Positions 8,449 to 50,900 of a DNA stretch of 64,000 nt are shown piece after piece. A model generated the notes under the pieces. It was not told the DNA's origin. It did no database searches and saw nothing but the letters and a program-made list of their open reading frames with translations. Both the position numbers and the translations under genes were made by a program. How positions within the stretch are numbered: the first letter of the stretch is position 1; each line of letters starts with the position of its first letter. Source of the DNA: Dillenia suffruticosa (Eukaryota; Streptophyta; Magnoliopsida; Dilleniales; Dilleniaceae); contig JAVTVX010000004.1 of the NCBI GenBank assembly GCA_033439265.1, positions 22,457,701-22,521,700 of the forward strand. The letters run 5' to 3'.

Positions 8449-8452
<4 letters not shown>

Positions 8453-8480
<28 letters not shown>
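8453..8480 (+). repeat. (CT)14 in the 5' leader
   Basis: An uninterrupted CT microsatellite ending 10 bp before the DUF761 start codon. Confidence 0.9.
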
Positions 8481-8490
8481 ACCTACAGAG

Positions 8491-15940: not shown

Positions 15941-16048
15941 TTCAACCCACCTCGCCCTCTCCTCTTTCCAAGCCAATTTCCTCTTTCATCTCTCTCTCTC
16001 ACATCCTAAAAGAACTGAACTTTCCCTCTCTTTCTCTCGTGTCAAAAA

Positions 16049-26802: not shown

Positions 26803-27357
26803 TACTACCAAGCGAACGTGGCGTCAATAGAGGATTTATCTCCTTGGCGAGTAGACATGGCCCACATTATCGAGCAAATGTGCCGTCAATAGAGGATCTA
26901 CCTCCTCGGTGGGTAGGTATGACCCACACTATCGAATGCACGTGCCGTCAATAGAGGATCTATCTCCCCGGCAAGTAGATACCGTCCACATTATCGAACG
27001 AACGTGCCATCAATAGAGGATCTATCTCCTCGGTGGGTAAGCATGGTCTATACTATCAAACGAACATACCGTCAATAGAAGATCTGTCTTCTCAACAAGT
27101 AGGCACAGCCTACATATTGAACGAATGTGCGGTCAATAGAGGATCTATCTCCTCGGCAGGTAGGCATGGTCCACATATCGAACAAACATGCCATCAATTG
27201 AGGATCTACCTCCTCAGCGGATAGGCACGCCCATACTATCAAACGTACGTATCAACGACAAGGGAATGCGTCTTCTTGTTAAGTAAGTACAACCCACTCT
27301 ATTGAGCCAATGAGCCAACAACAAGGGATATATCTCCCCACTATCTGCATGGAATAT
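26803..27357 (+). repeat. Minisatellite of about nine 60-62 bp units derived from the LTR
   Basis: Each unit reads roughly ATCGAACGAACGTGCCGTCA, then ATAGAGGATCTATCTCCTCG, then GCGGGTAGGCATGGCCCACA. Units start near 26805, 26867, 26929, 26991, 27053, 27114, 27175, 27236 and 27299; the last two are the most diverged. The same sequence, with changes, occurs once in each LTR. Confidence 0.85.
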
Positions 27358-30331: not shown

Positions 30332-32988
30332 TGTAACACCGACACTGCGGTGTCTGTAATAATGTACTATTCTCAAAAAATATATATAAATAAATATTCT
30401 TCAGTCTATATATACAACACCCCCCAAAATCAGATTAGGGCTTTTAGCCCTAATCTCTCTCTCTCTCTTCCTCTCTTTCTCTCTCCGCCCCTTCCCCTTC
30501 CCGCGACCCGTCGCCCTCCCTCGCCCGAATCCGCCGCTCTCTCCACCTTGCTCCTCCCTCCTGTGAGCACAACCTTCCCACGAGCGCACCGCAGCGCGAG
30601 CTTCCTCGCGCGAGCGTGCTGCAGCGCGAGCTGCCTCGCGCGAGCGTGCCGCAGCGCGATCTTCCCCGCTCGAGCGCACCGCAGCGCCAGCTTCCTCGCA
30701 CGAGCTTCCTCAAGCGAGCGTGCGACTGCAGTCCAGCTCACGAGCCTGCTCCTCAGCCCACGAGCGTGCCAATCCACGAGCATGCTGACCCTCGAGCCCA
30801 CCAGCCCGCGACGGCCAGCAAGACCACCAGCCCGCGACGGCCCGCGAGCCCATGACAGCCCACAAACCCTCAATAGCTCGCAAACCCGTGATCTATTCTC
30901 TCCTTCGAGAGCTCTCGTATGCGCAGGCCCCCTTGCTGCAACCCCAGCTGAAGCCCAAACCGCAGTCATCAACTGACCCCCGAACCCTAGGTCGTGGCTT
31001 CTTCACTGCAGATAACGGCTACGTTGGTTGTAGTTCTAGGGTTTGGTGCTTAGAATTTGATTTAGTTGCTAACATAGTTTCAAATGTGGAAATATTACAA
31101 GTTTTAGATCAATTTGACGGACAAACGAAAGTTAGGTCTGAGATCTGAGAAAACCCTAGGTGAGAGAAATGCAATCTCTTCAACATTTTGAAATAAATTT
31201 TATCAAATTTAGGTTGAAATTATCATCGGAAGCTATATATATACTCTGAAATATGTTAAATTTGAGGAAAATTAGAAAAAATGAGAAATATTAGAAATTT
31301 GATCATTGGTGAGCCAAATGATTCAAAATTGATGAAACGGGAATCTAGAAAGGAAATTGTGTAAATTAAGGTTGTATTAAATTGGAAAGAAAAATGAAAA
31401 ATCCCTTGTTAGACTTTTATTTGATATTAAATTGTGATGATTTGATTAGGGAAATCTTTTGGGAGACTCGAGAAGTCAGATTGGATTTGTTTTAAAAATA
31501 GGGAGTGACCACCCTCCCTAAAAATGTGAGTGGGACCCTAATCTATTGCATAAAATAGTGAACTTGTTTTTCTGTCATGTTTTTAATAAAACATGCTTTC
31601 GATATGTATTGACTCGACGTGTTGTATTAAATTTCAAAATTTGTTCTGTGACATTTGGAGTGTCGTAAATTTATGCTTCCGATGACTATACATCCATGGT
31701 TTGAAATGAATCAATATTGTGCCATTATTTGAGAACTAGAATGTTTTCTACTCTACCATTACATTGGCCTGTTGATTTAAAATGATTTGATGAAATGTAT
31801 CGGCACACGAATTTGAAATGTTTTGATAAATTATGCGGGTTGGATGCCTGTTAGTTATGTGATGTTTGTAAAATGATTGGTGCTTGTGCATGATTAATGG
31901 CTATAGTCATTCCTCCCACGGCGCAACCCGACGGGGTAACGTGGATGAGGGTTGGATTATATTTGGCGGGAGAGACAGACGTGTCTCCCTCAATGGTAGG
32001 TCGGGCTATATCCGGTTGCACCCCGGTGGGGCACGACCCAAAGCCAAGGAAAGGGGTATGTTTTGAAACATGATGGAAAAACTCTTGGCGGGTTTTCGTC
32101 TGGGTTTCGGCCAACCTGAGACGGAAGTGTTTTCGATGGGACCCCAGGATTTTCTGAAAAAAATGTTTGATACGGATGCATATATGTATGATATCGTATA
32201 ATTTATTAAATGAATTCATATTTCGGCACATATTATGGTACGTTACAAATTATGAATTTTTGCTTACGAAAATTGTTATTTGACACTCTAATAGTTCACC
32301 CACACTATTTATTCTTGATATTAACCCCCCTCACTCACTGAGTATCTTCCCTGATACTCACTCATCTCTTCTCCTTTCTCAGACAGGATTATTGTGATAG
32401 AGCGACGTTACAGGTTCTAAAAATTTTGATTGTTTCAGTGGATTTGATATTTACTACGGTGAGCTCTAAGTTTAATTTAAAAGATGAGTTTCTTACTTTA
32501 TTTCGACCCTGCGAGGTCTTGATATTGAGATCCGTAGTTGGTCGTATATATATTTATGGGATGACTGTATGAATAATGGACAATTATTCGTGAAACTTTT
32601 ATGTAGACTCATTTCATTTGCATTGAGGTACTTGAAAATATTTGAAATGTTAATTTGGGATTGTTGTACATTTTATAAAAATATTTAGGACCGCTCGGTG
32701 TGGCGGCTGCTCATACTCTAGTTGGGTATGACAGTAAAGATTTGTGGCTAGGACTATTAGAAATTTTATTGTCTTGCGTTGTTCTAGATGTTTGCGGTAG
32801 GATTTGTTGATTTTGGAGAGGCCGGGATGACCGTTTGTTTATTTGACAGGTTGATTTTGAATATACAGGTCAAATTGTACATGAGAGACCTCCGAAATAT
32901 GGAGAAATTCTATCCGATTTTCTATAAAAATACAACCGGCATCTAGGGTAACGGGCGGCTGCTCACGAACCTGGTTTGGGGTGTAACA
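30332..32988 (+). mobile_element. 2.66-kb solo LTR nested in the 3' LTR
   Basis: Begins TGTAACACC and ends GGTGTAACA, which are near-inverted TG..CA termini. It is flanked by the 5-bp duplication GAACT (30327-30331 and 32989-32993). A TATATATA box lies at about 30407. A GC-rich CT-rich leader at about 30455-30990 explains the long overlapping ORFs on both strands. No retroviral coding domain is present. Length and ends fit a large gypsy (Tekay/Del-like) LTR. It could also be a terminal-repeat-only element, but no second copy or PBS is seen. Confidence 0.8.
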
Positions 32989-33270: not shown

Positions 33271-33827
33271 AAGTTGATAAACATTAATGGCCAAGGGAGT
33301 CAGAATCTTAAGCATTTGGTGTTCAAAACTCACTTTCCACTTTCATTTAGCCAAATTGGGTTTGTTTAAAGCTTTTTTGAGTTAAATGGAATTTGAAAAA
33401 TTACGAACTCCAAATTTAAATCTCAAAAATAGAATTTCCATTACATATATATGTATGTATGTATGTATATGTTGTTCATTGCCCATTACAATGAAAGAGT
33501 GAAAAAGGTGATTATTGTTGCCATTCATCAATCTCTACCACTATCAAGGTTCATGTTGTATCTAAAATAAGTCTATCACTATAATTGCACTAAGGTTTAT
33601 AATGACAATAACATACTATACAATCCTAGAAATTATCGAACTACTCTTGTAAATAATTTTCACTAATCAAATTTTCATGAACCAAATTTAAATTCACAAT
33701 TTGGTTGGTGATTCTTTATTATCAAATTCAAACTGATCACAATTTTGAAGTGTGTTTATTAGTTCACTTAGACAATCATCTTAATATCACACATAAATTT
33801 AAATAAACCATTCCATATTGGGGGACT
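33271..33827. other. Intergenic DNA before the tRNA array
   Basis: No gene is seen. A short ATGT-type microsatellite lies at about 33449-33472. Confidence 0.5.
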
Positions 33828-33880
33828 TTCACCGGGCCTTGAATTTACACCAAGAAGACCAATCCCTTGAGGAAAAAAGC

Positions 33881-34067
33881 TAATGCTTAGTTGGTCCAGT
33901 GACTAGGCATTAGTACTCCTTAAGTAAGGTTTCGTATTCGAATTTTAGATATAGAGAACATAGGTATTGAAAAAGATTTGCCCTTTAAAAGTCAAACCCG
34001 ATTCGAATCAGATTTTGTTAAATCTAATGTGAGTACTGGATATCAGCTGTTTACCAAAAAAAAAATT
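33881..34067 (+). mobile_element. tRNA-derived SINE, family B, in the array
   Basis: The head TTAGTTGGTCCAGTGACTAG and a box-B-like GTTTCGTATTCGAATTTTAG precede an A-rich tail. It splits an array unit: CTTGAGGAAAAAAGCT lies just before it, and the related CTTAAGAAAAATG just after. Confidence 0.7.
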
Positions 34068-34287
34068 TCTTAAGAAAAATGTTTGCTATCCTTTTTGGTT
34101 GAGAGCAAGAACTTTAAACTGGTTTTGAAATCTAATTATGTAAATTTAGCCCAATAAGCCTATACTTTTGTCGTACAAACCAATTGGGCTAAAATCAACA
34201 GAGCTTAATTCTCATGTGTGCCGTGTGAAACCTTAAATAATAACTGATCCATATATACCCAAACGACCTATCCCTTGGGGTAAAAAA

Positions 34288-34459
34288 TGCCTAGTTAGTC
34301 TAGTGGGTGGGAATGGGTACCCCAAAAATAAAGTCTCGAATTCGAATGTTATGTATAGAGAAAATAGGTTTCATGAGATATTTATCTTTTAAGAATTCAA
34401 CCCAATTAAAATAAGATTTAGTCAGGGCTGCTTATAGGATACCGATGGTTCATAAAAAA
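34288..34459 (+). mobile_element. tRNA-derived SINE, family B, second copy in the array
   Basis: The head CTAGTTAGTCTAGTGGGTGG, CTCGAATTCGAATGTTATG and an A-rich end are related to the SINE at 33881. It also sits in the CCTTGAGGAAAAAAGG part of a unit. Confidence 0.65.
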
Positions 34460-34628
34460 ATACCTTGAAAAAAAAGGCTCGTCGGCCTTTTTGATCAAGA
34501 GCTAAGACTTCAAATTGGGTTTGAAATCTCATTATGTAATCTTAGAACCAATAAACCTATACCTATAGCGTGCAAGTCAATTAGACTAAAATCAATTGAG
34601 TCTAATTGTAGATGCACTCCAAAAGAAA

Positions 34629-34701
34629 TGCCTACTGTGGGGCTTGAATCCATAACCACAAGGTTAAGAGCCTTGCACTCTACCTACTGAGCTGGACTGG
34701 C
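34629..34701 (-). pseudogene. tRNA-Lys(CTT)-like copy 1
   Basis: Full 73 nt with the CTT anticodon loop kept. Several arm mutations compared with 40022-40094, including CATAACCA in the T-arm/variable region. Confidence 0.8.
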
Positions 34702-34882
34702 ATACTGATCCTTTCCTTTAGGAAAAAAAAGCTCGCTGGTCTTTTTGCTCAAGAGCTAGCACTTCAGATTGGTTTGAAATCTGATTGTGTAAGCATAGTT
34801 CGAGTAAACCTATACCTTTAGTGTACAAGTCGATTAGGCTAAAATAAATTGGATCTAATTACAGATACAATTCAAGAAAATT

Positions 34883-36435
34883 TGTTGACAAATTAAGTTT
34901 TGATGATGATCAAATTAAAGGAAATTTAAGTGAAAAATATGTTATGAGATCAATGAAAAATGATCAGAAAATAGGGTTAAGTATAATCATTCGGATGGCT
35001 AACCGAAGAAGCCCAATGGTTGACCAATTGAATTTCAATGGTTGATCGTATGCATGTGCGGTCAACCTACAAAACTCATGTGGTCGACTGCATAAGCAAT
35101 ATCGTCGACCGTGTGCGCCTAGAGCATACAATATGATTAACAACAATATGCACAGGCGGTTAGCCACGAGCACCCTGAACGCTCAAGTGGCCAGCTACGT
35201 ACACTTAATGCACACGAGCGTTCGATCACGAGCGCATTGTATACTCAAGCGGTCAACTGTTGAGTAGAAGTAGCCAGCCCACATGCTCATACGGCCAACC
35301 GAGATCATGAATGGCCAACCTAATCTACTCATTCAGTTGACCAATGATTCGAGCGATTAACCACGAAACCATTTGAGGAACCAAGTGCTCTTCTAGCTGA
35401 CTGAACCAAATCAAAGGCTGATCCAGAATCTGGTTAACTACGGTTGATCATCTATTAGCATAGATAATTTAAGTAAGAAATGACGCGACATTGAAAATAT
35501 TTATTGACTATTCAAAGATTGATGACATAGACTAAATGAACTCTTTAACTAATTAGTTGCCTAAGTAATCTTTGAATTTAAAGTCAACTATCTTTTGAAA
35601 ATCTCTTTTTGTCAAGCTAACATTCCTATTGCAGCAAAAAGGTGCTTCAAATTTTTTTAAGACAAGACTTAATGAAAAAAGTAAAGAGCTTCTTTAAGGA
35701 TGATAAAGTGCAAAAACATTAATTGAGTAGCAGCTGAAGACATTAATTGAGGAAGTTGAAGAGCATTTAATTCTCAATATTCAAATTCATCTACCATTCA
35801 ATGGCATTCTTCAAAAGAGTTATAAATGTCACAGTATTGAAGAATGGAGTAACGGAAGAGATTAAGAAAAAGAATGGTTATTGCGAACAAAACACGATCT
35901 TGTTGAATACTCTGCCACTCAAAAAACACACACTATATTAAACTCTCTGTATTCTCTCTATGAATATCAATTTACTGAACTTTAATTTCTTTTCATCTGA
36001 GAAATAGTCTCATACTCTGTAACATTCTCTGAGATTAACTTCATTACATATGAGAATTAGCCTCACACTCTATAGCAGCCTTATATTCAAAAGAACTCTA
36101 AAGATCGTGAGGGTTTCATGATTTGGTTTTTGAATGAGAAAGTTTTTCAGGAAGAAATACTTGTAAGGTTTCACTTGTACCTGTAAAGTAAGTAGGTTGT
36201 GAAGATTTCACTTGCACCTGGAAAGTAAATAGTGTGTACTATTTGGAAAAATAGTAAAAGTCAAGGAAGGTTGCTTGTAAGTGGACGTATTTCGGGTTAA
36301 TAGAACCATTATAAAAATTCTTGTGTCTGATTTCCTTTTAATTTCAGTTCCCTTAATCTTGTCTATTCAATTTACTTAGTTGAAAATCTCAAAAATTAGA
36401 AAACAATTATTCACTCCCCCTCTAATTGTTTTACA
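34883..36435 (+). mobile_element. 1.55-kb solo LTR inserted in the tRNA array
   Basis: Begins TGTTGACAAATTAAG and ends AATTGTTTTACA (TG..CA). It is flanked by AAATT on both sides (34878-34882 and 36436-36440). Removing it restores a normal array spacer. The ends resemble large Copia (SIRE-like) LTRs, with TTCACTCCCCCTCTAATTG near the 3' end. Strand and lineage are inferred. Confidence 0.8.
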
Positions 36436-36624
36436 AAATTAAAAATAAATAGAGGAAAAGAGAAATGTCCATCGGGGGTACCAATTACAGATGCATTCAA
36501 AAAAAATGGAAGCTTAAGCCCCATAAGCCTATACCTTTGGTGTACAAGTCGGTTGGGTTAAAATCAATCAAGTCTAATTATAGACGCAATAAAAAAATTA
36601 AAAATAAACAAAGGAAAAGAAATA

Positions 36625-36697
36625 CGCCCACTGTGAGGCTTGAACCCATGATCACAAGGTTAGGAGCATTGCACTTTATTAACTAAGCTAGACGAGC
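36625..36697 (-). pseudogene. tRNA-Lys-like copy 2, anticodon changed to CCT
   Basis: 73 nt. The anticodon loop reads CTCCTAA, so the anticodon is CCT (Arg-type). An anticodon-stem mismatch and other changes make function unlikely. Confidence 0.75.
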
Positions 36698-36903
36698 ATG
36701 CAAGTCCTTTCCTTGAGGAAAAAAAGGCTTACTGGTCATTTTGATCAAGATCTAACATTTCTGATCAGGTTTCATATCTAATTGTAGAAGCTTTAGACCC
36801 AATAAGCCTATTTAAATGGTGTATAATTCAATTGGGATAAAATAAACCGAGCCTAATTATAGACGCAATAAAAAAATTTAAAATAAACAAAGGAAAAGAA
36901 AAA

Positions 36904-36976
36904 CACCCATCAGGGGGCTTGAACTCACAACCACAAGGTTAAGAGAACTGCGCTCAATCGACTAAGTTATATGGGC
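36904..36976 (-). pseudogene. tRNA-Lys(CTT)-like copy 3
   Basis: 73 nt with CTT kept. Acceptor and anticodon stems are disrupted. Confidence 0.75.
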
Positions 36977-37042
36977 ATGCTGATCCTTCCCTGAGGAAAA
37001 AAGGCTTGAAATCTGATTGTGTAAGCTAGAGGAAAAGAGAAA

Positions 37043-37115
37043 CGCCCACCATGGGGCTCAAACCCATGACCACAAGGTTAAGAGATTCATGTCCCACTGA
37101 CTAAGTTAGACACGC
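37043..37115 (-). pseudogene. tRNA-Lys(CTT)-like copy 4
   Basis: 73 nt with CTT kept. The anticodon stem is broken (ATTCAT on +). It lies only 139 bp from copy 3 because the spacer is deleted. Confidence 0.75.
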
Positions 37116-37324
37116 ATTCCGATCCTTCCCTTGAGGAAAAAAAAGCCTCGCTACCTTTTTGATCAAGAGCTTGCACTTCAAATTGGGCTTGAAACCTAAT
37201 TGTGGAAGCTTAGACCTAGTAAAACTATACCTTTGGTGTACAAGTCGATTGGATTAAAATAAATCGGATCTAATTACATATGCAATTCAAAAAAATAATA
37301 ATAATAAACAGAGGAAAAGAGAAA

Positions 37325-37397
37325 CACTTACCGTGGGGCTCAAACCCATGATCACTAGGTTAAGTGCCTTGCATTCTATCAACTGAGCTCGATGGGT
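37325..37397 (-). pseudogene. tRNA-Lys(CTT)-like copy 5
   Basis: 73 nt. The loop reads CACTTAA, so the universal U33 is lost, and the acceptor stem is changed. Confidence 0.75.
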
Positions 37398-37603
37398 ATG
37401 CTGATCCTTCCCTTGAGAAAAAAGGACTCATTAGTCTTTTTGATCAAGTGCTATCATTTTAGATTGGGTCTGAAATTTGATTGTGTAAGCTTAGTCGAGG
37501 TAAACCTATACCTCTAGTGGAGAAGTCGATTAGGATAAAATAAATCAGGCCTAATTACAAATGCAATCCAAAAAAATTAAAAATAAATAAAGGAAAAGAG
37601 AAA

Positions 37604-37676
37604 CACCCACCGTGGGGTTCGAACAGACAACCACAAGGTTAAGAGCCATGTGTTCTACCGATTGAGCTAGACGGAC
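37604..37676 (-). pseudogene. tRNA-Lys(CTT)-like copy 6
   Basis: 73 nt with CTT kept. T-arm mutations (GAACAGAC on +). Confidence 0.75.
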
Positions 37677-37812
37677 ATGCTTGTCCTTTCTTTGAGGGAA
37701 AAAAGGGTCACTTGCACTTTTTGATCGAGATCTAGCACTTCAGATTGTGCTTGATATTCAATTATGGAAGCTTAGACCTCGTAAGCCTATACCTTTGGCG
37801 GGAAAAGAAATA

Positions 37813-37885
37813 CGTCCACTGTAGGGCTCGAAACCATGACCACAAGGTTAAGAGCATTGCGCTCTACCGTCTAAGCTAAACTGGC
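37813..37885 (-). pseudogene. tRNA-Lys(CTT)-like copy 7
   Basis: 73 nt with CTT kept. Acceptor mismatches. The unit before it is shortened (209-bp spacing). Confidence 0.75.
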
Positions 37886-38083
37886 ATGCAGATCCTTTCC
37901 TTGAGGAAAAAAAGGCTCGCTAGTCATTTTGATCAAGATCTAGCACTTTTGATTGGGCTTCATATCTGATTGTGGAAACTTAGACCCAATCAGCTATACC
38001 TTTGGTGTACAATTCGATTATGCTAAAATCAATCAAGCCTAAATGTAGATGCAATAAAAAAAATAAAAAATAAACAAAGGAAA

Positions 38084-38106
38084 CCTACCGACTAAGCTAG
38101 ATGGGC
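38084..38106 (-). pseudogene. tRNA-Lys-like copy 8, truncated
   Basis: Only the first 23 nt (5' acceptor strand and D-arm, CTACCGACTAAGCTAGATGG on +) remain. The rest is deleted into the A-rich spacer. Confidence 0.7.
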
Positions 38107-38313
38107 GTGCTTGTCTTTTCCTTAAGAAAAAAAGGGCTCGCTACTCTTTTTTATCAAGTTCTAGCACTTCAGATTGGGCTTGATATTTGATTGTCTAACC
38201 TTAGGCCCCGTAAGCCAATACCTTTGATGTACAAGTCGATTAGGCTAAAATCAATCAAGCCTAATTGTAAACGTAATAAAAAAATTAAAAAATAAATAGA
38301 GGAAAAGAGATAC

Positions 38314-38410
38314 GTCCACATTGTGGCTCAAACCTAGACCCACAATAGGGCTTATACTCAAGACCACAAGGATAAGAGTCTTGCACTCTACTGACTAAGC
38401 TAGACAGGCA
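38314..38410 (-). pseudogene. tRNA-Lys-like copy 9 with 24-nt insertion
   Basis: 97 nt. The T-arm region is partly duplicated. The loop region reads ATAAGAG on +, so position 38 is changed while CTT is kept. Confidence 0.7.
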
Positions 38411-38619
38411 TACTGATACTTCCCTTGAGGAAAAAGGGCTCGCTTATCTTTTTTTATCAAGAGCTAGAACTTCAAATTGGGTATGAAATCTGATCGTATA
38501 AGCTTAGTCCAGGTAAACCTACACCTTTGATATATTAGTTGATTGGGATAAAATAAATCAGATCTAATTATAGATGCAATTCAAAAGAAAAATTAAAAAT
38601 AAATAGAGAAAAAGAGATA

Positions 38620-38692
38620 TGCCCACTGTGGAGCTCAAACTCAAGACCATAAGGTTAAGAGCCTTGCGCTCAACCTACTGAGCTAAACAAGT
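38620..38692 (-). pseudogene. tRNA-Lys(CTT)-like copy 10
   Basis: 73 nt with CTT kept. The acceptor 5' strand is mutated (AAACAAGT on +). Confidence 0.75.
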
Positions 38693-38898
38693 ATGCCGAT
38701 CCTTCCCTTGAGGAAAAAAAGGGCCACTCGTCATTTTGATCAAGGGCTAGCACTTCAAATTTGGTCTAAAATCTAATTGCGTAGGCTTAGTCCAAGTAAA
38801 CCTTTATCTTTGGTGTATAAGTCGATTAGGATAAAACAAATCGGGTCTAATTACAGATGTAATTCAAAAAAAATTAAATAAACAAAGGAAAACAAAAA

Positions 38899-38971
38899 CA
38901 CCCATCGTGGCGTTCAAGCCCACGACCACAAGATTAAGAGCATTGCGCTCTACCAACTGAGCTAGACGAGC
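38899..38971 (-). pseudogene. tRNA-Lys(CTT)-like copy 11
   Basis: 73 nt with CTT kept. The D-arm is intact. The T-loop and acceptor carry a few changes. Confidence 0.75.
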
Positions 38972-39192
38972 ATGCTGATCCTTCGCTTGAGGAAAAAAAG
39001 GCTTGCTTATCTTTTTGATCAAGAGCTAGCACTTTAGATTCGTTTTTTAATCTAACTGTGTAAGCTTAGTCGAGGTAAACCTATACCTCTAGTGTATAAG
39101 TAGATGGGGATAAAATAAATCAAACCTAATTATAGATACAATCGGCAAAAAAAAGAAAAAGAAAAAGAAAAAGAAAAAGAGGAAAAGAAAAA

Positions 39193-39265
39193 CACCTACC
39201 ATGGGGCTCAAACATACAACTACAAGGTTAAGAGCCTTGTACTCTACCGACTAAGCTAGACGAGC
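39193..39265 (-). pseudogene. tRNA-Lys(CTT)-like copy 12
   Basis: 73 nt with CTT kept. The T-stem is changed. An (AAAAAG)n run lies just below it at about 39150-39180. Confidence 0.75.
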
Positions 39266-39456
39266 GTTTTGACCCTTCATTTGATGAAAAAATGGCTCGC
39301 TGGCCTTTTTGATCAACATCAATCACTTCAAATTGGGTTGATTGTCAAAGCTTAGACCCATTACGCCTACACGTTTGGCTTACAAGTCGATTGGCCTAAA
39401 ATAAATCGAGCATAATTGCAGATACAATAAAAAAAATAACCATAGGAAAAGAGAAA

Positions 39457-39529
39457 CACTCATTATAGATCTCGAACCCATGACCACATGGTTAAGAGCC
39501 TTGCGCCATTCTGACCGAGCAAGAAGGGC
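39457..39529 (-). pseudogene. tRNA-Lys(CTT)-like copy 13
   Basis: 73 nt with CTT kept. The D-arm is badly disrupted (CCATTCTGACCGAGC on +), a form shared with the fragment at 42452. Confidence 0.75.
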
Positions 39530-39739
39530 ATTATGATCCTCTCCTTAAAGAAAAAAATGGCTTCCTGGCCTATTTGATCAAGATCTAGCATTTTTAGATT
39601 CTGTTTGAAATCTGATTATGTAAACTTGGGCCCCATAAGCCTATACCTTTGGCATACAAGTCAATTGGGCTAAAATCAGTCAAGCCCATTTGTTGATGCA
39701 ATAAAAAAAAATTTAAAACTAAGCAGAGGAAAAGAGAAA

Positions 39740-39812
39740 CGCTCACTGCGGAGCTTGAACTCATGACCACAAGATTAAGAGTCTTGTGCTCTACTGATTG
39801 AGCTAGACAGGC
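39740..39812 (-). pseudogene. tRNA-Lys(CTT)-like copy 14
   Basis: 73 nt with CTT kept. Scattered stem changes. Confidence 0.75.
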
Positions 39813-40021
39813 ATGCAGATCCATTCCTTGAGGAAAAAAAGGCTCGCGGGTCTTTTTGATCAAAATCTGGTACTCTCAAATTTGGCTTGAAATATGATTG
39901 TGTAAGTTAAGGCCCAATTAGCATATACCTTTTGCATACAAGTCGATTGGGCTAAAATCAATCGAGCCTAATTGTAGATGCAATAAAAAAAATTAAAAAG
40001 ATAAAAAGATAAAAAAAGATA

Positions 40022-40094
40022 CGCCCACCGTGGGGCTCGAACCCACGACCACAAGGTTAAGAGCCTTGCGCTCTACCGACTGAGCTAGACGGGC
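40022..40094 (-). tRNA. tRNA-Lys(CTT), intact copy
   Basis: A 73-nt cloverleaf. The acceptor strands GCCCGTC and GGTGGGC pair over all seven positions, two as G-U. The D-arm is GCTC-AGTCGGTA-GAGC, the anticodon arm CAAGG-CTCTTAA-CCTTG with anticodon CTT, and the T-arm GTGGG-TTCGAGC-CCCAC. Discriminator G and boxes A and B are complete, and there is no intron. Downstream on the minus strand a T7 run begins four bases after the 3' end (40017-40011), a good Pol III terminator. Upstream, CAA lies at -6 to -4, the position favoured for plant tRNA transcription starts. It fits my recollection of the standard plant tRNA-Lys(CTT). It is the only copy in the array with no visible defect. Confidence 0.95.
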
Positions 40095-40302
40095 ATGTTG
40101 GACCTTTCTTAGAGGAAAAACAATGCTCGCTACTCTTTTTGATCAAAATCTAGCGCTTCAGATAAGGCTTGATATCTAATTGTAGAAGCTTAGAACCAGT
40201 AAGCCCATAACTTTGGTGTACCAATCGACTGGGCTAAAAGAAATCAAGTTTAATTACAACTGCAATCCAAAAAAATTAAAAATAAACAAAGAAACAAAAA
40301 TA

Positions 40303-40375
40303 CGCCCACCGTGGATCTCGAATCCATGACCACAAGATTATGAGCACTACGCTCTACATACTGAGTTAGATGGGC
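40303..40375 (-). pseudogene. tRNA-Lys-like copy 16, anticodon changed to CAT
   Basis: 73 nt. The loop reads CTCATAA (anticodon CAT, Met-type), but the anticodon stem is mostly unpaired, so it is probably dead. Confidence 0.75.
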
Positions 40376-40585
40376 ATCCTAATCATTCCTTTGCAGAAAA
40401 AAAGGCTTGCTGGCATTTTTGAACAAGAACTAGCACTTCAGATTCGGTTTGAAATTTGATTGTGTAAATTTTAGGCCTAGTAAGCCTATATCTTTGGTGT
40501 ACAAGTCCATTGCGCAAAAGCCAATCGAGTCTAATTGTATATACAATTCAAAAACAAATTAAAAATGAACAATGGAAAAAAGAAA

Positions 40586-40658
40586 CCTCCATCGCGAAGC
40601 TCAAACGCACAACCACAAAGATAAGAGCCTTGCGCTCTACCAACTAAACCAGGCAAGC
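40586..40658 (-). pseudogene. tRNA-Lys-like copy 17
   Basis: 73 nt. The loop reads CTCTTAT. Acceptor and D-arm are mutated. Confidence 0.7.
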
Positions 40659-40866
40659 GTTCCAATCCTTCCCTTGAGGAAACAAAGGCTGATTGGACTT
40701 TTTGATCAAGAGTTAGTACTTCAAATTGGGTTGGAAATCTAATTGTGTAAGCATAGTTCGGGTAAACCTATACCTATGGCGTAAAAGTCAAGTAGGATGA
40801 AATAAATCGAGTCTAATTACAGATATAATCCAAAAAAAATTAAAAATAAACATAGGAAAAAAGTAA

Positions 40867-40939
40867 CGCCCACCGTGGGGCTCAAACCCACGACCACAAG
40901 GTTAAGAGCCTTGCGCTCTACCGACTGAGCTAGACCGGC
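40867..40939 (-). pseudogene. tRNA-Lys(CTT)-like copy 18, nearly intact
   Basis: It differs from the intact copy at two positions: acceptor position 4 (C to G, giving G.G) and the T-loop (TTTGAGC for TTCGAGC, in box B). It keeps the CAA upstream motif and a T6 run downstream. It could still be transcribed weakly. Confidence 0.75.
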
Positions 40940-41138
40940 ATGTTGATCCTTCCCTTGAGGAAAACAAAGGATTGCAGATCTTTTTGATCAAGTGCTAGAA
41001 CTTCAGATTGGATTTGAAATCTGATTGAGTAAGTTTAGTCCAGGTAAACCTCTACCTTTGGAGTATAAGTCGATTGGGATAAAATAAATTGAGCCTAATT
41101 ACAAAAGAAAATTAAAAATAAACAAAGGAAAAAAGAAA

Positions 41139-41211
41139 TATCCACCGTGTAGCTCGAACCTACAATCACAAGATTAAGAGCCTTGTGCTCTACCAATCGA
41201 TCTAGACGGGC
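41139..41211 (-). pseudogene. tRNA-Lys(CTT)-like copy 19
   Basis: 73 nt with CTT kept. The acceptor 3' strand and D-arm are changed. Confidence 0.75.
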
Positions 41212-41357
41212 GTGCTGATACTAACTTTTAGGAACAAATGCCTTGTTGGCTGTTTTGATCAAGATCAAGCACTTTAGATTGAGATTGAAATCTATAAATC
41301 AGATTTAATTGCTGATACAATAAAAAACAATTAAAAATAACCAAAGGAAAGGAGAAA

Positions 41358-41430
41358 GGCTTAATGTGGAGTTTGAACCCACAACAGCAAGGTTAAGAGA
41401 TTTGTGCTCTACCAACCCAACTAGACTGGC
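41358..41430 (-). pseudogene. tRNA-Lys(CTT)-like copy 20
   Basis: 73 nt with CTT kept. The acceptor 3' strand is not recognisable and the D-arm is altered. Confidence 0.7.
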
Positions 41431-41640
41431 TTTCTTATCTTTCCCTTAAGGAGAAATAACCTCAATGGCCTCTTTGATCAAGATCTAGCACTTTTCACAT
41501 TCAGCTTGAGATCTAATTGTTTATGATTTGGCCCTGTCAGCCTATACCTTTGGCATACAAGTTGACTAGGCTAAAATCTATTGAGCCTAATTGTAGATAC
41601 AATAAAAAAAAAACTAAAAATAAAAAGAGGAAAAGAAACA

Positions 41641-41713
41641 CACCCACCATGGGGCTCGAACCCACGACCACAAAATTAAGAGTCTTACGCTCTACCAACT
41701 GAGCTAGATAGGG
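41641..41713 (-). pseudogene. tRNA-Lys(CTT)-like copy 21
   Basis: 73 nt. T-arm and D-arm are good, with CTT kept. The anticodon stem (CAAAATTAAGAGTCTTA on +) and the acceptor end are mutated. Confidence 0.75.
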
Positions 41714-41920
41714 GGTGCTAGTCCTTTCCTTGAGGAAGAAGAGACTCCCTGGTCTTTCCCATCAAAATCTAGCACTTCAGATTAAGCTTGATATCTAATT
41801 GTGGAAGTTTAAACGCGGTAAGCCTATATCTGTGGTGTACAAGTTGATTGGGCTAAAATGAATCAAGCTTAATTTCAGATGCAATTCAAAAAAATAATAA
41901 TAATTAGAGGAAAAGAGAAA

Positions 41921-42002
41921 CGCCCATCATGGAGCTCAAACCCATGGCCACCATGGCCACAAAGTTAAGTGCTTTGAACTCTTTAGACTAAGTTTGATGA
42001 GC
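41921..42002 (-). pseudogene. tRNA-Lys-like copy 22 with 9-nt duplication
   Basis: 82 nt because CATGGCCAC is repeated in the T-arm/variable region. U33 is lost (CACTTAA). Confidence 0.7.
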
Positions 42003-42213
42003 TTTCTGATCCTTTCCTTGTGAAAAAAAAGGGTTTACCGGCCTTTTTGAACAAGATCTAGCACTTCAAATTTGACTTGAAATCTAATTGTGTAAGTTTA
42101 GACCCAATAAGCCTATACTTTTGATGTACAAGTTAACTATGCTAAAATTAATCGGGCCTAATTATAGATGAAATCCAAAACAAAAATTAAAAATAAATTA
42201 AGGAAAAGAGAAA

Positions 42214-42286
42214 CACCCACCGTAAGGCTTGGACCCACAATCACAAAATTAAGAGTCTTGTGCTCTATCGACAAAGGGTGACAGGG
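42214..42286 (-). pseudogene. tRNA-Lys(CTT)-like copy 23
   Basis: 73 nt with CTT kept. D-arm and acceptor 5' strand are destroyed. Confidence 0.7.
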
Positions 42287-42451
42287 GTGCTAATCCTTCC
42301 TTTGAGGAAAAAAATGGCTTGTTGGCCTTTTTGATCAACAACAAGCACTTCAGATTGGGCTAGAAATCTAATTGTGAAAGCTTAGACCCATGAAGCCAAT
42401 ACCTTTGGCATACAAGCCAAATTGCATACAAGCCAATACCTTTGGCATACA

Positions 42452-42492
42452 GTGTTAAGAGACTTGCACCATTCCGAGCAAGCAAGGAGGGC
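42452..42492 (-). pseudogene. tRNA-Lys-like copy 24, truncated
   Basis: Only the 5' half to the anticodon remains, joined directly to the GGCATACA spacer. It shares the CCATTCCGAGCAAG form of copy 13. Confidence 0.65.
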
Positions 42493-42686
42493 GTTATGAT
42501 CCTTCCCTTGAGAAGGAAAAAAAGTCTCGCTGTCCTCTTTGATCAAGATCTAGCACTTTCAGTTCTGCTTGAAATCCCCCATAAGCTTATGCCTTTGGTG
42601 TACAAGTTGATTGGACTAAAATCAATCGAGTCTAATTGTAGATGCAATCAAAAAACAAATTAAAAATAAACAAAGGAAAAGAGATA

Positions 42687-42759
42687 TGCCCACCGTGGGG
42701 CTTGAACCCATGACCACAAGGTTAAGAGCCTTGCGCTCTATCAACTGAGCTAGCCGAGC
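42687..42759 (-). pseudogene. tRNA-Lys(CTT)-like copy 25
   Basis: The anticodon arm is intact. There is one acceptor mismatch and one T-stem mismatch, the D-loop GG is changed to GA, and the T-loop is TTCAAGC. One of the better preserved copies. Confidence 0.75.
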
Positions 42760-42956
42760 ATACTGGTCCTTTCCTTAATGAAAAAAATGGTCCGGATCAA
42801 GATTTAGCACTTCATATTGGGTTTGATATCAAATTATGGAAGCTTAAACCCAGTAAGCCTATACCTTTGGTGTACAAGTTGATTGGACTAAAATAAATTA
42901 GGCTTAATTGCATATGCATTCAAAAAAAATTAAAAATAAACAGAGGAAAAGAGAAA

Positions 42957-43029
42957 TAGCCATTACGGTGCTTAAACCTATAACCAAAAGGTTAAAAGCC
43001 TTGCACTCTACCGACTGAGCTCGAAGGGC
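42957..43029 (-). pseudogene. tRNA-Lys-like copy 26, anticodon TTT
   Basis: 73 nt. The loop reads CTTTTAA, the other lysine anticodon. The acceptor 3' strand is badly decayed. Confidence 0.7.
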
Positions 43030-43147
43030 ATTTGATCCCAGTAAGCCAATACCTTTGACGTACAAGTCAATTACACTAAAACCAATTGGGCCTAATTGTA
43101 AATGCAATTTAAAAGAAAAATTAAAAATAAATAGAGAAAAAGAGAAA

Positions 43148-43219
43148 TGCCCTCTATAGAGCTCGAAGCCATGATCACAAGGTTAAGAGTCTTGCACTCT
43201 ACCAGTGAGATAGACGAGC
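43148..43219 (-). pseudogene. tRNA-Lys(CTT)-like copy 27
   Basis: 72 nt (one base lost in the D-arm), CTT kept. Confidence 0.7.
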
Positions 43220-43424
43220 GTTTTGATCCTTCCCTTGAGGAAAAAAAGGCTCGTTGGTTTTTTTGATCAAGAGTAGCACTTCAAATTGGGTTTGAAATTT
43301 GATTGTGTAAGCTTAGTCTGAGTAAACCTATGCCTGTGGTGTATAAGTCAATTGGGGTAAAATAAATCGGGTCTAATTACAGAAACAATCCAAAAAATTA
43401 AAAATAAACAGAGGAAAAGAGAAA

Positions 43425-43497
43425 CTCCCACCATGGGGCTCAAACCTATGACCATAAGGTTAAGGGCCTTGCACTCTACGGATTGAGCTAGACGGGC
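43425..43497 (-). pseudogene. tRNA-Lys(CTT)-like copy 28
   Basis: 73 nt. U33 is changed to C (CCCTTAA). The acceptor 5' strand is intact. Confidence 0.75.
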
Positions 43498-43663
43498 ATA
43501 AGTCGATTCGAATGAAATAAATCGAGTTTGAAATCTGATTGGCTTAGCTTAGTCCAAGTAAACCTATACCTCAGGTATATAAGTCGATTCGAATGAAATA
43601 AATCGAGCCTAATTACAGATGCAATCCAAAAAAAAAATAATAATAATCAGAGGAAAATGGAAA

Positions 43664-43735
43664 TGCCCACCATGAAATCTAACGTACGACCACAAAGTTA
43701 AGAGTCTTGCGCTCTATAAATTGAGTTAGAAGGGC
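43664..43735 (-). pseudogene. tRNA-Lys(CTT)-like copy 29
   Basis: 72 nt. The T-arm is disrupted; CTT kept. Confidence 0.7.
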
Positions 43736-43913
43736 GTGCTGATCTTTCCTTTGAGAAAGATTGGGATTAAAATCTGGTTGTGTTAGCTTAGTCTGGGTAA
43801 ATCTATACATTTGGTGTATACCTTTGGTATACAAGTCGATTGAGATAAAATAAATCAGGCCTAATTACAGATGCAATCCAAAAGAAATAAAAATAAACAA
43901 AGGAAATGAGAAA

Positions 43914-43986
43914 CATCCACCATGGAACTTAAACCCACGACCACAAGGTTAAGAGCCTTGCGCTCTACTGACTGAGTTAGATGAGC
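43914..43986 (-). pseudogene. tRNA-Lys(CTT)-like copy 30
   Basis: 73 nt. The anticodon and D-arms are almost intact. The T-loop (TTTAAGT) and acceptor are changed. Confidence 0.75.
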
Positions 43987-44075
43987 ATGATCCTTCTTTT
44001 GAGATAAAAATGGCTCATTGGTCTTTTTGATCAAGATCAATCACTTTAGATTGGGTTTGAAATCTAATTGTATAA

Positions 44076-44137
44076 GAGCTCGAACTCACGACTATAAGGT
44101 TAAGAGACATGCACTCTATCAATCGAGCTAGACGGGC
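44076..44137 (-). pseudogene. tRNA-Lys(CTT)-like copy 31, 3' truncated
   Basis: 62 nt. The 3' acceptor strand is missing because the upstream unit joins directly to the T-arm. Confidence 0.7.
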
Positions 44138-44457
44138 ATTCTATTCCTTCCCTTGAGGAAAATATAAGCTAGTTGGCCTCTTTTGAGATATCTAGCACTT
44201 TCACATTTGGTTTGAAATCTAACTATGTTAGATGAGGCCCCATAATCCTATGCCAAACCTTCCCTTGAGGAAAGGATAAGCTCGTTGGCCTCTTTGATCA
44301 AGATCTAGCACTTTCACATTTGGTTTGAAATCTAACTGTGTTAGATTAGGCTCCGTAATCCTATACCTTTGGCATACAAGTCAATTGGACTAAAATCAAT
44401 CAAGCCTAATTGTAGATGCAATCAAAAAAATTAAAAATAAACAAAGGAAAAAAGATA

Positions 44458-44530
44458 CACCCACTGTGGGGCTCAAACCCACAACCACAAGTTTTAGAGC
44501 CTTGTGTTCTACCAATTGAGTTTTACGGGC
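44458..44530 (-). pseudogene. tRNA-Lys-like copy 32, anticodon CTA
   Basis: 73 nt. The loop reads CTCTAAA, giving CTA, which would read UAG. The anticodon and D-stems are mismatched, so it is probably inactive. Confidence 0.7.
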
Positions 44531-44734
44531 GTGCTGGTCCTTTCATTAAGGAAGAAATGGCTCACTTGTCTTTTTGATCAAGATCTAACACTTTAGATTG
44601 GGCTTAATATTTGAATGTGGAAGCTAACACCTAGTAAGCCTATATCTTTGCTGTACAAGTCGATTAGCTAAAATCAATGTTTAATCATAGATACAATGTT
44701 AAAAAAGTTAAAAATAAATAGAGGAAAAGAAAAA

Positions 44735-44791
44735 CTCCCAAACAACCCCGAGGTTAAGAGCGTTGTGCTTTATCGATTGAGCTAAACGAGT
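44735..44791 (-). pseudogene. tRNA-Lys(CTT)-like copy 33, internal deletion
   Basis: 57 nt. About 16 nt of the T-arm are missing. It is the last recognisable copy at the right end. Confidence 0.7.
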
Positions 44792-44800
44792 TTGTTGATC

Positions 44801-45956: not shown

Positions 45957-47976
45957 GAAAGAACTTAAAACAAAATGAGTGAAATGAAATAAAATAATGT
46001 TAAACGCATATGATCAGTCTTTCTTCTGGACCTTGGGTATTGGAAGCTTGGTCCATGCATGGGTTTTTACGTGCCTATATTGTTCGATGTATAGGAAGAA
46101 GGCATTCAGCGAGGCTGAGGTTTTTTGACTCTTGGGGGTTCTGTCTGCTCGCTGAATGAACCAATGGTAGTGTTGGTGCCCATGAAAGAGGGTGGTTTAG
46201 TAATTTAAAAAATTCTCACTCCGAGTGACAAAATGGACAGGACGGCCTCTCTCTCTCTCTCTCAAATGAATATGAATGGAATTGACCCACACACACTTTA
46301 TACAAATGTGTAAAACAATACAATCTTTCAGGTATCAGAAATTGACATGTCTGAAGTTGATGTCTAAACTTCCAAACAAGGAAAGAATATGTTTCATATA
46401 TAAATATGGGTATGTCTCAGCAAAGAAGGACCCAATTAATAATGGAGGTTGTATTGTATGTTCCTGGGAAGTCATTGCCATTGTCATGCGTAATTAAGCG
46501 AAAGTGGGATTAATAAATTGCAAAATGTAAATACCATCCAATTTGACTTCCCTGCAAACTTGATTGGCTTACTCAACAACAATTGCTTGCATTTATTCCA
46601 TTGCAATGTGCCTTGTTTCAATAATCGAGCCAGCTAATGTCCTGGACAAGAGAGGAGAAGGGGTCGTGAGAGCTCGAACTCTTACCACTGGTGACAGATG
46701 AGTTTCTTTGTACAATTGTGCCTGTAACCCAATAGTCGAGCCATGAATTCGGTTATTAGAACTTTTCTCTTGATGCACAATATAGATAGATGCTTGGTAT
46801 TCAAATTTTATGAGTCCCACTCCCAAATCACCTAGGTTAGCTTTGCTGTTTTATCATCCTAAAGGACGTTAAGTCTGTTAATCAAAAAATCATATCCAAA
46901 TCTTAAAAATGAAAAGAATTATATCAGGAGAATTTCCCTTCGAAAAGGAGCCTGACTGTGGCTTAGACCAAATTATCAAACCATGGCTTCGAATGCTGAT
47001 TGGTGGAAAAATGTCCCATGACACCCAAAAAAAAAAAAAACCACCAAATAAATTAGCTACATAGAAATAAAGACAAGACTCAAATACTTTGAATAGGGGC
47101 AAAGCATAGATTTGTCTTGAATTATATGCATAACAAAGCAAAAATATGAGCATTTGGTGATTCCAAGCAGATTCATCATACAGGACCATATTCCCTGTAT
47201 CAGGCACCAGCATGATTCTCTACCATGTTATTGCAGCAAGGCATCAATCCGCTTGAGGCAAGCAGGCTCGAGTTACGCATTCTCAAGTCATAATACCAAC
47301 ACTAAATGCAAATAGAAAACAAGCCAACCATCCAGTGGAGTCAATTAATCCACTTCCATTCTTCCACAGTAGCTTTTTCCATGCCCATTTGCTTAAAGAA
47401 CCCAAAAGAAAAAATAAAAATAAATGAAGAGCTAGGGGTCACCTTTCTCAATATGTCAAGAAATTATCAATTGAACGAATGAAATCACACTTATGACGGA
47501 TAAATCAGATATAATTCAACAGAGTAACTCTTATCATCTGATTAAATTTATAAGAACATAGTCCCCTAAAATAGGGCTTAAAAGTTCTAGTGAGATCATC
47601 ACAAAAGCACAAGCCATGCACGATGTGCAAAAATGAAACAGGATATAACACAAGTCCTCTAAACAGGCAGCAGGTTCCAGCAAACTATACAAACTACCTG
47701 CAACAAAGTGGGAATGCCCTTTCCCTTTTGGCATTCTCACATGTAACAGGCACGCTGAAAAGAGAGTGGAGAAACAAATTTCATCATGATGTCTTTTACC
47801 GAGAGTTGCTATATTTCTGGTTACAAATAATTAAAGTTCTAAGTCACCAAAATTTCCCTACCTTAGATGCTACTGCAAAACCCAGATACCGATTTTTGTT
47901 TGCATCCTGCAAATTTTTAATCAAAGGATCTCAAAATGTTGGGACGACAGAAGAAAAACCTTCAATGATTGACAGC
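45957..47976. other. Region between the kinase gene and its partial copy
   Basis: No separate gene is recognised. The part nearest 47977 is the 3'UTR of the minus-strand kinase. A short CT run lies at about 46243-46262 and a poly(A) at about 47027-47040. Confidence 0.5.
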
Positions 47977-50900
47977 TTACGAAACCGTTCTTCCATAACA
48001 AACTGAAGCAATATATAGGTTTTTAGCCCACTTCTCCTGCAAGTAGGACAACAAGTAATTTCAGCTTTTAAAATAACTCAGGATTGACAACAAAGAGCAA
48101 CTGGACACTAAATGGCTATCATGATGCACCTTCACATGTGTACTTGGAAAGGCAGAAGTCCTAAGAGTTTCCTGTGTTTCATCTGTGGGCTTTCTTCTTG
48201 GTACGCTAAGAACAAAAGCAGCCTGATCCCAAGTTGAGGCAGTTGCTGTGATACGATATCCGCTATCCCATCTCCGATGAATACCTTCACTTGGGTAAAG
48301 AAAATCTAGTTCAACGACCTAAAAGAAATAAATTAATTAGTACCGGATGCTTTTGAAATTGTATCATACGCGGGAGCAAAAGCACTGCACAAAGTGAAAA
48401 TCCAAAAAGACCTGATCTGAAAATCCTGCACCGCGGGACATTACAACCGCCCATCGACTCCCTGAGGTTGCCATTGCTGTAATATAAAATCCTTCCCTCC
48501 ACTTTTTGTTGATCCATTTGTAAGGAAATGAATCACTTACTTTGTAGGATTGCTGTAGAAACTGTGTTCCTAGATTTGGAAGTGTACACATAAAATAGCA
48601 GGTCATTAAATACCCCCGGCCCCCCCAAAAAAAAAGATGAAGTCTTTTAAGCAGTAACTCAAAATATCAATCACCTTTAGACATAACAACTAAGGAGCTC
48701 CCATTTGCTGCTCCTGCTATTGCACTGATATAATAGTTCTTTTCCCACTGCTCCATAATCCATTCCTTAAAATAGCAAATATCAAATTAGTCAATTGGCT
48801 AGAATAGTTCTACAAATAAAGCCCGTATTAATGGGGATTTTCTAATGCAATAACATGCTCTAAATGGAGACATTATTCTTAAATGAAACACATCATCAAC
48901 AATCAGATTGAAGAGGCTACCTTGTGAAGAAAATGTGGTGAAAGTTCATATACTTGAGCATTGAAACCTGTACCCGCATCCATTATTAGCGCCCATAGAT
49001 TCTGACAAGAAGCCACACTGCTGATAAATAAGCCATCCTCGTTCCCTTTCTCAATGTGTTGGGCAAGCCTTCCATCTGCCACATTATAGTGATACCTAAA
49101 ACAGCAACACGGAAAAATTTCTGCCTCAATATTCTTGCATATCCAGGAACAGTTTTAATTAGAACTTCAGAAGAGAAGAGGCAGTATAATAGCAAGCAAA
49201 CACAAGATAGATTTACAAGGAACGGGGGAAACAAATAAGCATGAGGTAGGCAAGGGAAAATATAGCATCAACAAAGAAAATTACTAATTGAATCAGCCTA
49301 TTCTTTAATAACAAGGAAAGAGTATATGACATGGCTTTTTGAACCTTTGCTTCATAGGCCGACGAGCATTGTAGACACTAATCCATTGGGTTGCAGGCAT
49401 CCCCATCCTGACCTTTTTCTTTGGTTGTTCATCTTCCTCCTCCTCAGTCAGACGACCTCTTTTATGACCAACTTGATATATAAGCTTCAGAAGATATCGA
49501 CCGCAAATTAGATCATGCTAAAACTATATTCTCAAAAAAAACGAAAAGAAAGAGAAAAAAGAAGAAGACTAATTCAAACTTGGTAACTACCAGAAAGATT
49601 TAGTATCACAATACCTTCTGGGCACCATCAGTATTAATCGGCCTGATATCAGGGTTTGGACCTACAATCCCATCAAAGAGGGAAATGTACTTCGCATAAT
49701 TAGGCTCCTCATCGAACTTCAAGTTCACTACATATTCAACGAATTGTCTGAAAGGTTGTGGACAGAAACAACACAAGGATTCCGGAGATGTTCCCATCTT
49801 CTTCTTGCAAACAAGGAACCCTTTGTTCTCACCCTAAAATGACAATAAGCATGTCAAACAAATGTTGTCATTATTTACTAGATGCCCAACTCCTATCATC
49901 GGGATTGAAAACCAACCTGATATCCTTGCCATGGAAGACGACCACGGAGAAGGAAAATCAATGTGTAGGCTAAAGATTCCAGATCATCCCGCCTACTAGC
50001 AGTCCTCCCGAGATGAGCATGAACACTGGCGTAACGTACTGTTCCCCTGCAGAAAGATGACGAATAACCCAGAGCAAAACTGAAAAATATTTCATGAAGA
50101 AACATTATAAAAACTCAGGCAAAGATCCTTCAATTAGGTTTCTACCTGAAGACATCTGGCCTTTGGTCATATTCAACATGCATGCCAGCTCCCTCACGCC
50201 ATTTAGTTGCTTAAAAAAAAACACTGTTAGAAAGAAACACAATCGATACTACATTTAACAGAGTGAATACCTTCGTAGATTTTTACCTAGTCCAAGATCT
50301 ACCAGAAACAATTTTTTCTCATCCTGAGTCCCAGGAGGCCCAAGGAGAAAATTCTCAGGCTTTACATCTCCATGCACATATCTGCCAAAATTGAGACAAT
50401 CACATTTGAGACATTTTGCATTGCAATATACAGTATTTATCTACCAACAGAAAAAATCTAAGCTTAAATCTAAACTTCAATATACCATAATTATTTCCCA
50501 TAAGCCCAATTTACCAATCAAGTGTTTCAAGCTCTTACCTTACCTAGAACAAAATTGTTCGTCCAGTTCCAAACATGTTAGGATAGATATTCTCATTTAT
50601 GGAAATCGTTAATCCAAGTAGCATTATCACCCAAAGAAATCAGAAACCTTTAGTGAAAAATAATGGTGCCAGTAATTTAATTGTCCGGCAAAGTTACAAT
50701 GACTTGATATTGTTAAAACATAAGAACTGAAACCACAGATTCAAGGCTAATTCCAACTATCACCATCAAGAAATAGAACCAAATGGTTTAGCACAAGTAC
50801 TGCCCAATGGTGTCCCGGTTACAAGGGAAACCTCAACATATGTGCCAACTGCATTTTTGCATATAAAACAGTGAAATGAAATCATAATCCAGAAGATATG

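Follow-up and report, generated by a model that had tools for sequence, protein, structure and literature searches.

Clusters of tRNA genes were reported for 40 of 44 eudicots in one survey (PMC11700998), in which Pro, Tyr-Ser and Ile clusters are named; in the parts of that paper available to us, tRNA-Lys is mentioned three times (in a table of nuclear tRNA gene (tDNA) content, for plastomes, and in a reference), and never as a cluster. A second survey (PMC12652284), as far as its text was available, covers 50 species and gives identical tandem tRNA pairs for 43 anticodons, corresponding to 20 amino acids and the initiator Met, in clusters of 2-110 genes, with Lys named in the main text only in a table of sequence groups. 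The tRNA-Pro and Ser-Tyr-Tyr (SYY) clusters of Arabidopsis are, according to the available parts of PMC11700998 and PMC12308677, methylated and silenced in most tissues. Here we describe an array of tRNA-Lys(CTT) genes and relics in Dillenia suffruticosa, located at 34073-44790 on the minus strand of a 64,000-nucleotide stretch (hereafter, the window; positions 22,457,701 to 22,521,700 of contig JAVTVX010000004.1, assembly GCA_033439265.1), in which one copy is intact, one is nearly intact, and the rest are decayed; a second array of this kind lies in the homeologous segment. In the tRNA-array literature that we searched, we found no nuclear plant Lys(CTT) array (the supplementary tables of PMC12652284, outside that scope, could list one) and no description of a homeologous pair of dead arrays in each of which a single gene is preserved.

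Results

Structure of the array and its preserved copies

The assembly searched comprises 596 Mb, and loci are named below by contig, the one that holds the window being contig C4. In one protein search with this DNA, the best of the 120 hits listed (out of 943) was from Dillenia turbinata, at 91% identity. A unit profile hidden Markov model, built from a single unit (276 positions; search seed 39813-40094, minus strand), gave 41 rows at 34073-44790, all on the minus strand and head to tail, with some units spanning two rows. The unit is about 276-284 bp long (in the regular stretches, Tandem Repeats Finder detected periods of 281-284); in a full unit, the tRNA-Lys(CTT) gene or its relic is followed by about 200 bp made up of a T-rich 3' flank and a conserved spacer. 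At least 56 of the 73 tRNA positions are present in 31 rows, at least 70 in 29, and 13 in one row; two further 5' tRNA fragments were recognized by eye near 42497 and 38112. Of the rows with at least 56 tRNA positions, 27 have the anticodon CTT and the remaining four read CTA, CAT, TTT and CCT; the consensus tRNA has every cloverleaf pair and the anticodon CTT. ARAGORN called eight tRNAs in the whole window (seven Lys and one Arg-CCT), and the Rfam tRNA model gave 12 matches above its gathering score, every one of them inside the array by either method. Lys-type matches are thus present, and an earlier reading of the same DNA, made by a model from the letters alone (the sequence-only reading), is borne out in describing a one-strand, head-to-tail amplification of tRNA-Lys(CTT) in units of about 280 bp with a conserved spacer; its 33 copies are about right (31 recognizable rows and the two 5' fragments), and so is its single flawless copy. 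As in the plant definition of a tandem tDNA cluster, adjacent tDNAs of the same isoacceptor lie less than 1 kb apart on the same strand. Three ARAGORN tRNAs fall within 40866-41714, yet only two array copies are near-intact, to be set beside the three or more high-confidence genes per kb used in the available part of PMC11700998.

The flawless copy, at 40022-40094 (minus strand), shows 0/73 differences from the canonical sequence, is followed by a T-run, and has the best Rfam tRNA score in the window (67.1 bits). All 21 of its stem pairs are intact and the A and B promoter boxes are both present, so that it has the cloverleaf, boxes and canonical sequence expected of a functional tRNA gene; 62 further genomic copies are identical to it (ungapped pattern search). 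The spacer of the unit that holds it (39813-40094) is off the consensus at 22 of 162 columns, similar to other units; the comparison of 0/73 with 22/162 gives a binomial P of 2e-5 (uncorrected, 24 units tested). The nearly intact copy, at 40867-40939 (minus strand; identified by the Rfam tRNA model and the unit alignment), has 2/73 changes against a spacer with 28/162 (binomial P 1e-4, likewise uncorrected for 24 units): one, at tRNA position 4 (C to G), disrupts a pair of the acceptor stem, and the other, C56 to T, hits the B box and the T loop. This copy was probably disabled lately and would be newly dead. Among the 29 copies of at least 70 nucleotides (nt), the next-best has seven changes, and the other 27 all have seven or more. 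For comparison, changes were counted in 73-column windows moved along the flank and spacer of 35 rows; 0 of 3406 windows had two or fewer changes, the minimum being four. A CAA motif directly upstream of both survivors was considered as a mark and dropped, CAA being found also upstream of some decayed copies.

The homeologous array

The window is colinear from 3.0 to 62.5 kb with C18:21197660-21257894, with no C18 match for about 25.1-33.3 kb of the window, nor over other shorter gaps in the colinear stretch. The two segments are therefore homeologous. The matching position on C18 is occupied by an array that gives 24 profile rows and whose unit is about 390 bp long. Two of its copies are preserved, with a survivor at C18:21233260-21233332: the first has 0/73 changes against a spacer with 18/146 (P 7e-5), the second 2/73 against 19/145 (P 2.5e-3). 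The next-best of the 14 C18 copies of at least 70 nt has nine changes, and the 73-column control gave two or fewer changes in 0 of 588 spacer windows (minimum four). The near-intact C18 copy carries a change of G5 to A that is absent from the other 84 near-intact genes of the genome and turns the 5-68 wobble into a standard pair; the same change, which is a CG transition, is present in six of 27 decayed copies of the C4 array.

Of the 64 rows from both arrays, 41 had enough spacer for a unit tree (14 from C18 and 27 from C4). The C18 units form one clade (14/14, support 100), separate from all 27 C4 units, and the Kimura two-parameter distance (K2P) between spacers is 0.249 within C18, 0.321 within C4, and 0.393 between the arrays. 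In the alignable homeologous flanks, K2P is 0.173 and the proportion of differing sites (p) is 0.154 (18,192 sites in 66 pieces, with the array and one 7-kb stretch left out and coding sequence included; the estimate is biased toward conserved DNA). The simplest reading of the tree and the distances would be that one ancestral locus was amplified twice, after the genome duplication. The extra segment of the 390-bp C18 units is matched, in four pieces with 76-92% identity, by 33652-33878 (minus strand) at the C4 array edge, which by this comparison appears to be a trace of the longer unit.

Two other parts of the colinear stretch were noticed. A 7.3-kb stretch at 47046-54372 is 85% identical to its homeolog, above most surrounding pieces. 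A local gene cluster is formed by two DUF761-type open frames, at 8443-9081 and 16019-16648, with several related stretches at colinear C18 positions.

Divergence and decay of the copies

The units differ from each other at a mean p of 0.255, with a minimum of 0.123 (478 pairs, each sharing at least 120 columns), and show no clear trend in divergence with distance along the array; the pattern is that of a star-like old burst without later homogenization, which speaks against duplication in the assembly. A permutation of higher-order periodicity over 21 offset bins gave one value below 0.05 (0.033) and one above 0.95 (0.98), with no consistent signal. It is very unlikely that the array arose as an assembly artefact, given the 12% difference between even the closest of the units compared and the presence of a homeologous array. 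Two other classes of repeat were rejected for the array units: short interspersed nuclear elements (SINEs) or scattered tRNA retrocopies, by the single strand, head-to-tail order and common spacer; and satellite DNA, which is long, homogenized and usually found at several sites, by the 11-kb length, the 25% difference between units and the restricted spacer. Among the best 40 of 303 candidate genomic places, which were those scored, the spacer was matched only in the C18 array. The sequence-only reading was therefore correct in taking the array for old (the units differ by 25% on average, without recent homogenization); its "tRNA-derived satellite" is not supported for a single 11-kb locus with such a spacer and one gene apparently kept intact.

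Over all rows, survivors included, the substitution rate per site is 0.176 in the tRNA part and 0.162 in the spacer. Decay is dominated by C-to-T and G-to-A changes, and transitions within the tRNA affect 0.317 of cells at CG sites versus 0.119 at CHH sites, as would be expected of germline-methylated, silenced DNA. When corrected for sequence context, 394 tRNA changes are observed versus 466 predicted from spacer rates (ratio 0.85); it seems, then, that constraint was absent from most copies during most of their existence. Only two copies, among the 29 with 70 nt or more, pass a loose test for both promoter boxes. Pair-preserving change was sought in the 27 decayed copies of that length and rejected: 459 of 558 stem pairs are kept, the mean of shuffles is 460.7, and 1476 of 2000 shuffles reach the observed value; thus, no structural constraint is visible in the decayed copies. 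Special conservation of the anticodon loop (nine changes in 189 cells) was also set aside: A/T sites in other parts of the tRNA change about equally slowly (0.071 in C4, 0.041 in C18), so that the A/T-rich make-up of the loop and its lack of CG sites account for most of the effect.

It should be noted that the anticodon-loop cytosines C32 and C34 of the decayed copies are changed in one of 58 cells, versus 0.160 at tRNA CHH sites. This is not fully explained by base make-up; C2, another CHH site, is likewise unchanged.

Three of the decayed copies, all on the minus strand, deserve mention. The relic at 41641-41713 has 9/72 changes, scores 52.8 bits with the Rfam tRNA model and matches the loose test at both boxes; that at 42687-42759 has 7/73 changes and scores 50 bits; and that at 36625-36697 has the anticodon CCT by ARAGORN and the unit alignment, and is the one called tRNA-Arg.

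Other tRNA arrays in the genome

Genes for tRNA-Lys(CTT) were sought throughout the genome with an ungapped pattern, allowing up to three mismatches, so that the counts may be lower bounds; the reversed control gave no matches. At least 85 near-intact genes were found, 63 of them perfect, with 73 in arrays and 12 scattered. Besides the C4 array, there are five further Lys(CTT) arrays, on C5, C15, C16, C18 and C19, and the near-intact genes number two each on C4, C18 and C19, five on C5, 30 on C15 and 32 on C16. With decayed copies included, the examined stretches hold 36 copies on C15, 24 on C19 and 12 on C5; ARAGORN found no further tRNA in the stretch below the C19 array, the one compared. 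Outside the tRNA and the flank nearest to it, no match to the C4 unit was seen in the C5, C15, C16 and C19 arrays.

These arrays differ in the ratio of tRNA to spacer change. On C15, the tRNA rate is 0.016 versus 0.088 in the spacer (36 units), and this looks like a living array with constrained tRNAs. The C5 array is mixed (0.076 versus 0.084, nine units; the spacer of its perfect copy has 28/254 changes, P 2e-4), and the C19 array is dead (0.136 versus 0.087, 21 units). A single gene at C9:3859510-3860811, likely an unexpanded relative, has flanks that match the C15 spacer. Kinship of the C15 and C16 arrays was considered and rejected, no common spacer being found among the six best pieces per target in a 3.3-kb sample of C16, nor in a genome search that skipped very common words. 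The C16 array (C16:2067829-2123650) is young, with 32 near-intact copies at apparent spacings near 790 and 1545 bp; in the sample, a further copy lies inside the longer interval.

Other tRNAs are repeated locally as well. A tRNA-Ile(TAT) array at C1:4317001-4337000 has many units near 820 bp and 20 ARAGORN calls in 20 kb, with more copies on C13; tRNA-Cys(GCA) genes recur in steps of about 1.2 kb on C11 and C2; and Lys(TTT) genes are likewise locally repeated. Array formation is, therefore, not peculiar to Lys(CTT). The novelty that the sequence-only reading saw in a Lys(CTT) array is weakened by the five further arrays, by these local repeats and by the available part of the PMC12652284 survey.

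Later insertions and other repeats

Later insertions into the array, also proposed from the letters, are supported. A SINE with a tRNA-like head lies at 34275-34456 (plus strand), close to a unit end, and occurs in at least 39 other genomic places among 40 matches (the best 40 of 133 candidates were scored). A second SINE-like element, at about 33880-34055 (plus strand, ends approximate), appears by eye to belong to the same family. The insertion at 34883-36435, within a unit, has TG...CA ends and is flanked by AATTT at 34878-34882 and 36436-36440; from its sequence it is a putative long terminal repeat (LTR)-like element, and the repeat finder showed no terminal repeats inside it. Outside the array, the window has a GC-richer tandem repeat of 62 bp at 26813-27250 (about seven copies, with a 124-bp dimer) and a GC-rich one with a 30-bp period at 30581-30719, within overlapping open frames.

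Discussion

Starting from what is directly established (the array, its decay, intact copies in decayed units, the homeologous sister array and the separate clades), we give a probability of roughly two in three to an old Lys(CTT) burst followed by decay, with one or two copies kept by selection as RNA polymerase III (Pol III) genes and the homeolog amplified separately with the same outcome. In this account, an old local burst, due probably to unequal exchange or slippage, would have multiplied a nuclear tRNA-Lys(CTT) gene together with its flank into a head-to-tail array. The array would then have stopped homogenizing, and its tRNA parts would have decayed mainly by C-to-T and G-to-A changes, most at CG sites, a bias behind which germline methylation and silencing may stand. 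The copy at 40022-40094, and until recently also that at 40867-40939, would most likely have been kept as a working Pol III gene under purifying selection. A further amplification of the same ancestral locus, most likely a separate event, appears to have taken place on the homeologous chromosome.

Several observations weigh against this scenario. The second C4 copy already holds two damaging changes. The homeologous flanks (K2P 0.173) are less diverged than the C4 units (0.321), and the timing of amplification relative to the duplication is, therefore, uncertain. The 15% shortfall of tRNA changes (394 versus 466) means that many copies may have worked for a while. The spacer of the perfect C19 copy is also little changed (9/160, P 0.015), so that C19 adds little and is no proof of selection. 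Finally, gene conversion confined to the tRNA would yield an identical pattern.

Such conversion, in which intact copies are overwritten now and then from Lys(CTT) genes elsewhere, would have to be restricted to the 73-bp tRNA, since the flanks differ. Donors are at hand in the 62 other identical copies, and by eye the intact stretch stops at the gene boundary; nevertheless, every other C4 copy with 70 nt or more (27 in all) has seven or more changes, and G5 to A on C18 is private among the 85 near-intact genes, a weak objection given its presence in six of 27 decayed C4 copies and its nature as a CG transition. On balance, we regard conversion as unlikely, although it is the main alternative to selection on the intact copies and one of the two stronger rivals overall.

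The other concerns timing: the array could be older than the genome duplication, each homeologous array having been homogenized later in a way that mimics separate amplification. The separate clades (support 100), the different unit lengths (about 280 versus 390 bp) and the wide distances between units within each array, with no recent homogenization, make this improbable to a similar degree, even though the C4 units differ more (p 0.254) than the alignable flanks (p 0.154, biased to conserved DNA) and the C4 edge retains the extra segment of the longer unit.

That all copies are an inert repeat and the perfect one is due to chance fits the seven or more changes in 27 of 29 copies, and is very improbable given that an untouched 73-nt stretch is expected at about 2e-5 for that unit, that fewer than four changes occur in 0 of 3406 spacer windows, and that the pattern recurs on C18. 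Still less probable is a methylation-silenced gene reserve switched on in particular tissues, suggested by analogy with the Arabidopsis SYY cluster (available part of PMC12308677) and by the CG-biased decay, when two of 29 copies pass the promoter test.

The old burst with one or two selected survivors may be an instance of a wider tendency. We tentatively propose, at odds close to even, that this lineage repeatedly amplifies tRNA-Lys(CTT) loci (six arrays, two of them homeologous), each ending either maintained or dead with one or two selected genes. If true, the genome holds a natural time series of the birth and death of tRNA arrays. It is an open question why plants keep redundant tRNA genes, and here one genome brings together arrays of a single tRNA that are living, mixed or dead, with spacers as built-in controls: constraint on an array, or on a single copy, can be read from tRNA versus spacer divergence.

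Comparison with known tRNA clusters

Within the same genome, the C15 and C16 arrays resemble that on C4 in consisting of the same gene on one strand, with 30 and 32 near-intact copies; in contrast, they have no common spacer with C4 that we could find (C16 being represented by one 3.3-kb sample), and are spaced mostly by 1.0-1.2 kb (C15) or about 0.8 kb (the C16 sample). Most tRNA genes of Entamoeba histolytica lie in tandem arrays, whereas the C4 array is one decayed locus. What the two have in common is the tandem arrangement of tRNA genes, as named in the available part of PMC2888827.

For the plant clusters, we rely on the available parts of PMC11700998 and PMC12308677. As on C4, complete nuclear tRNA genes are tandemly amplified in the Arabidopsis tRNA-Pro and SYY clusters; however, other isoacceptors are involved, and SYY has a core of genes with the major sequence and more pseudogenes in the regions around it, whereas all but one or two of the C4 copies are changed. 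The maize tRNA-Ile cluster (28 copies) and the tRNA-Pro stretches of many eudicots (PMC11700998) are single-isoacceptor tandem arrays like that on C4, but were called after a high-confidence filter, which one or two C4 copies only are expected to pass; dead arrays like this one would probably escape surveys limited to high-confidence genes. Since tandem arrays of tRNA genes are already known in plants, the lysine array belongs, in the light of these clusters, to a known kind of locus; what stands out is that, on both homeologs, a gene is preserved within a dead array.

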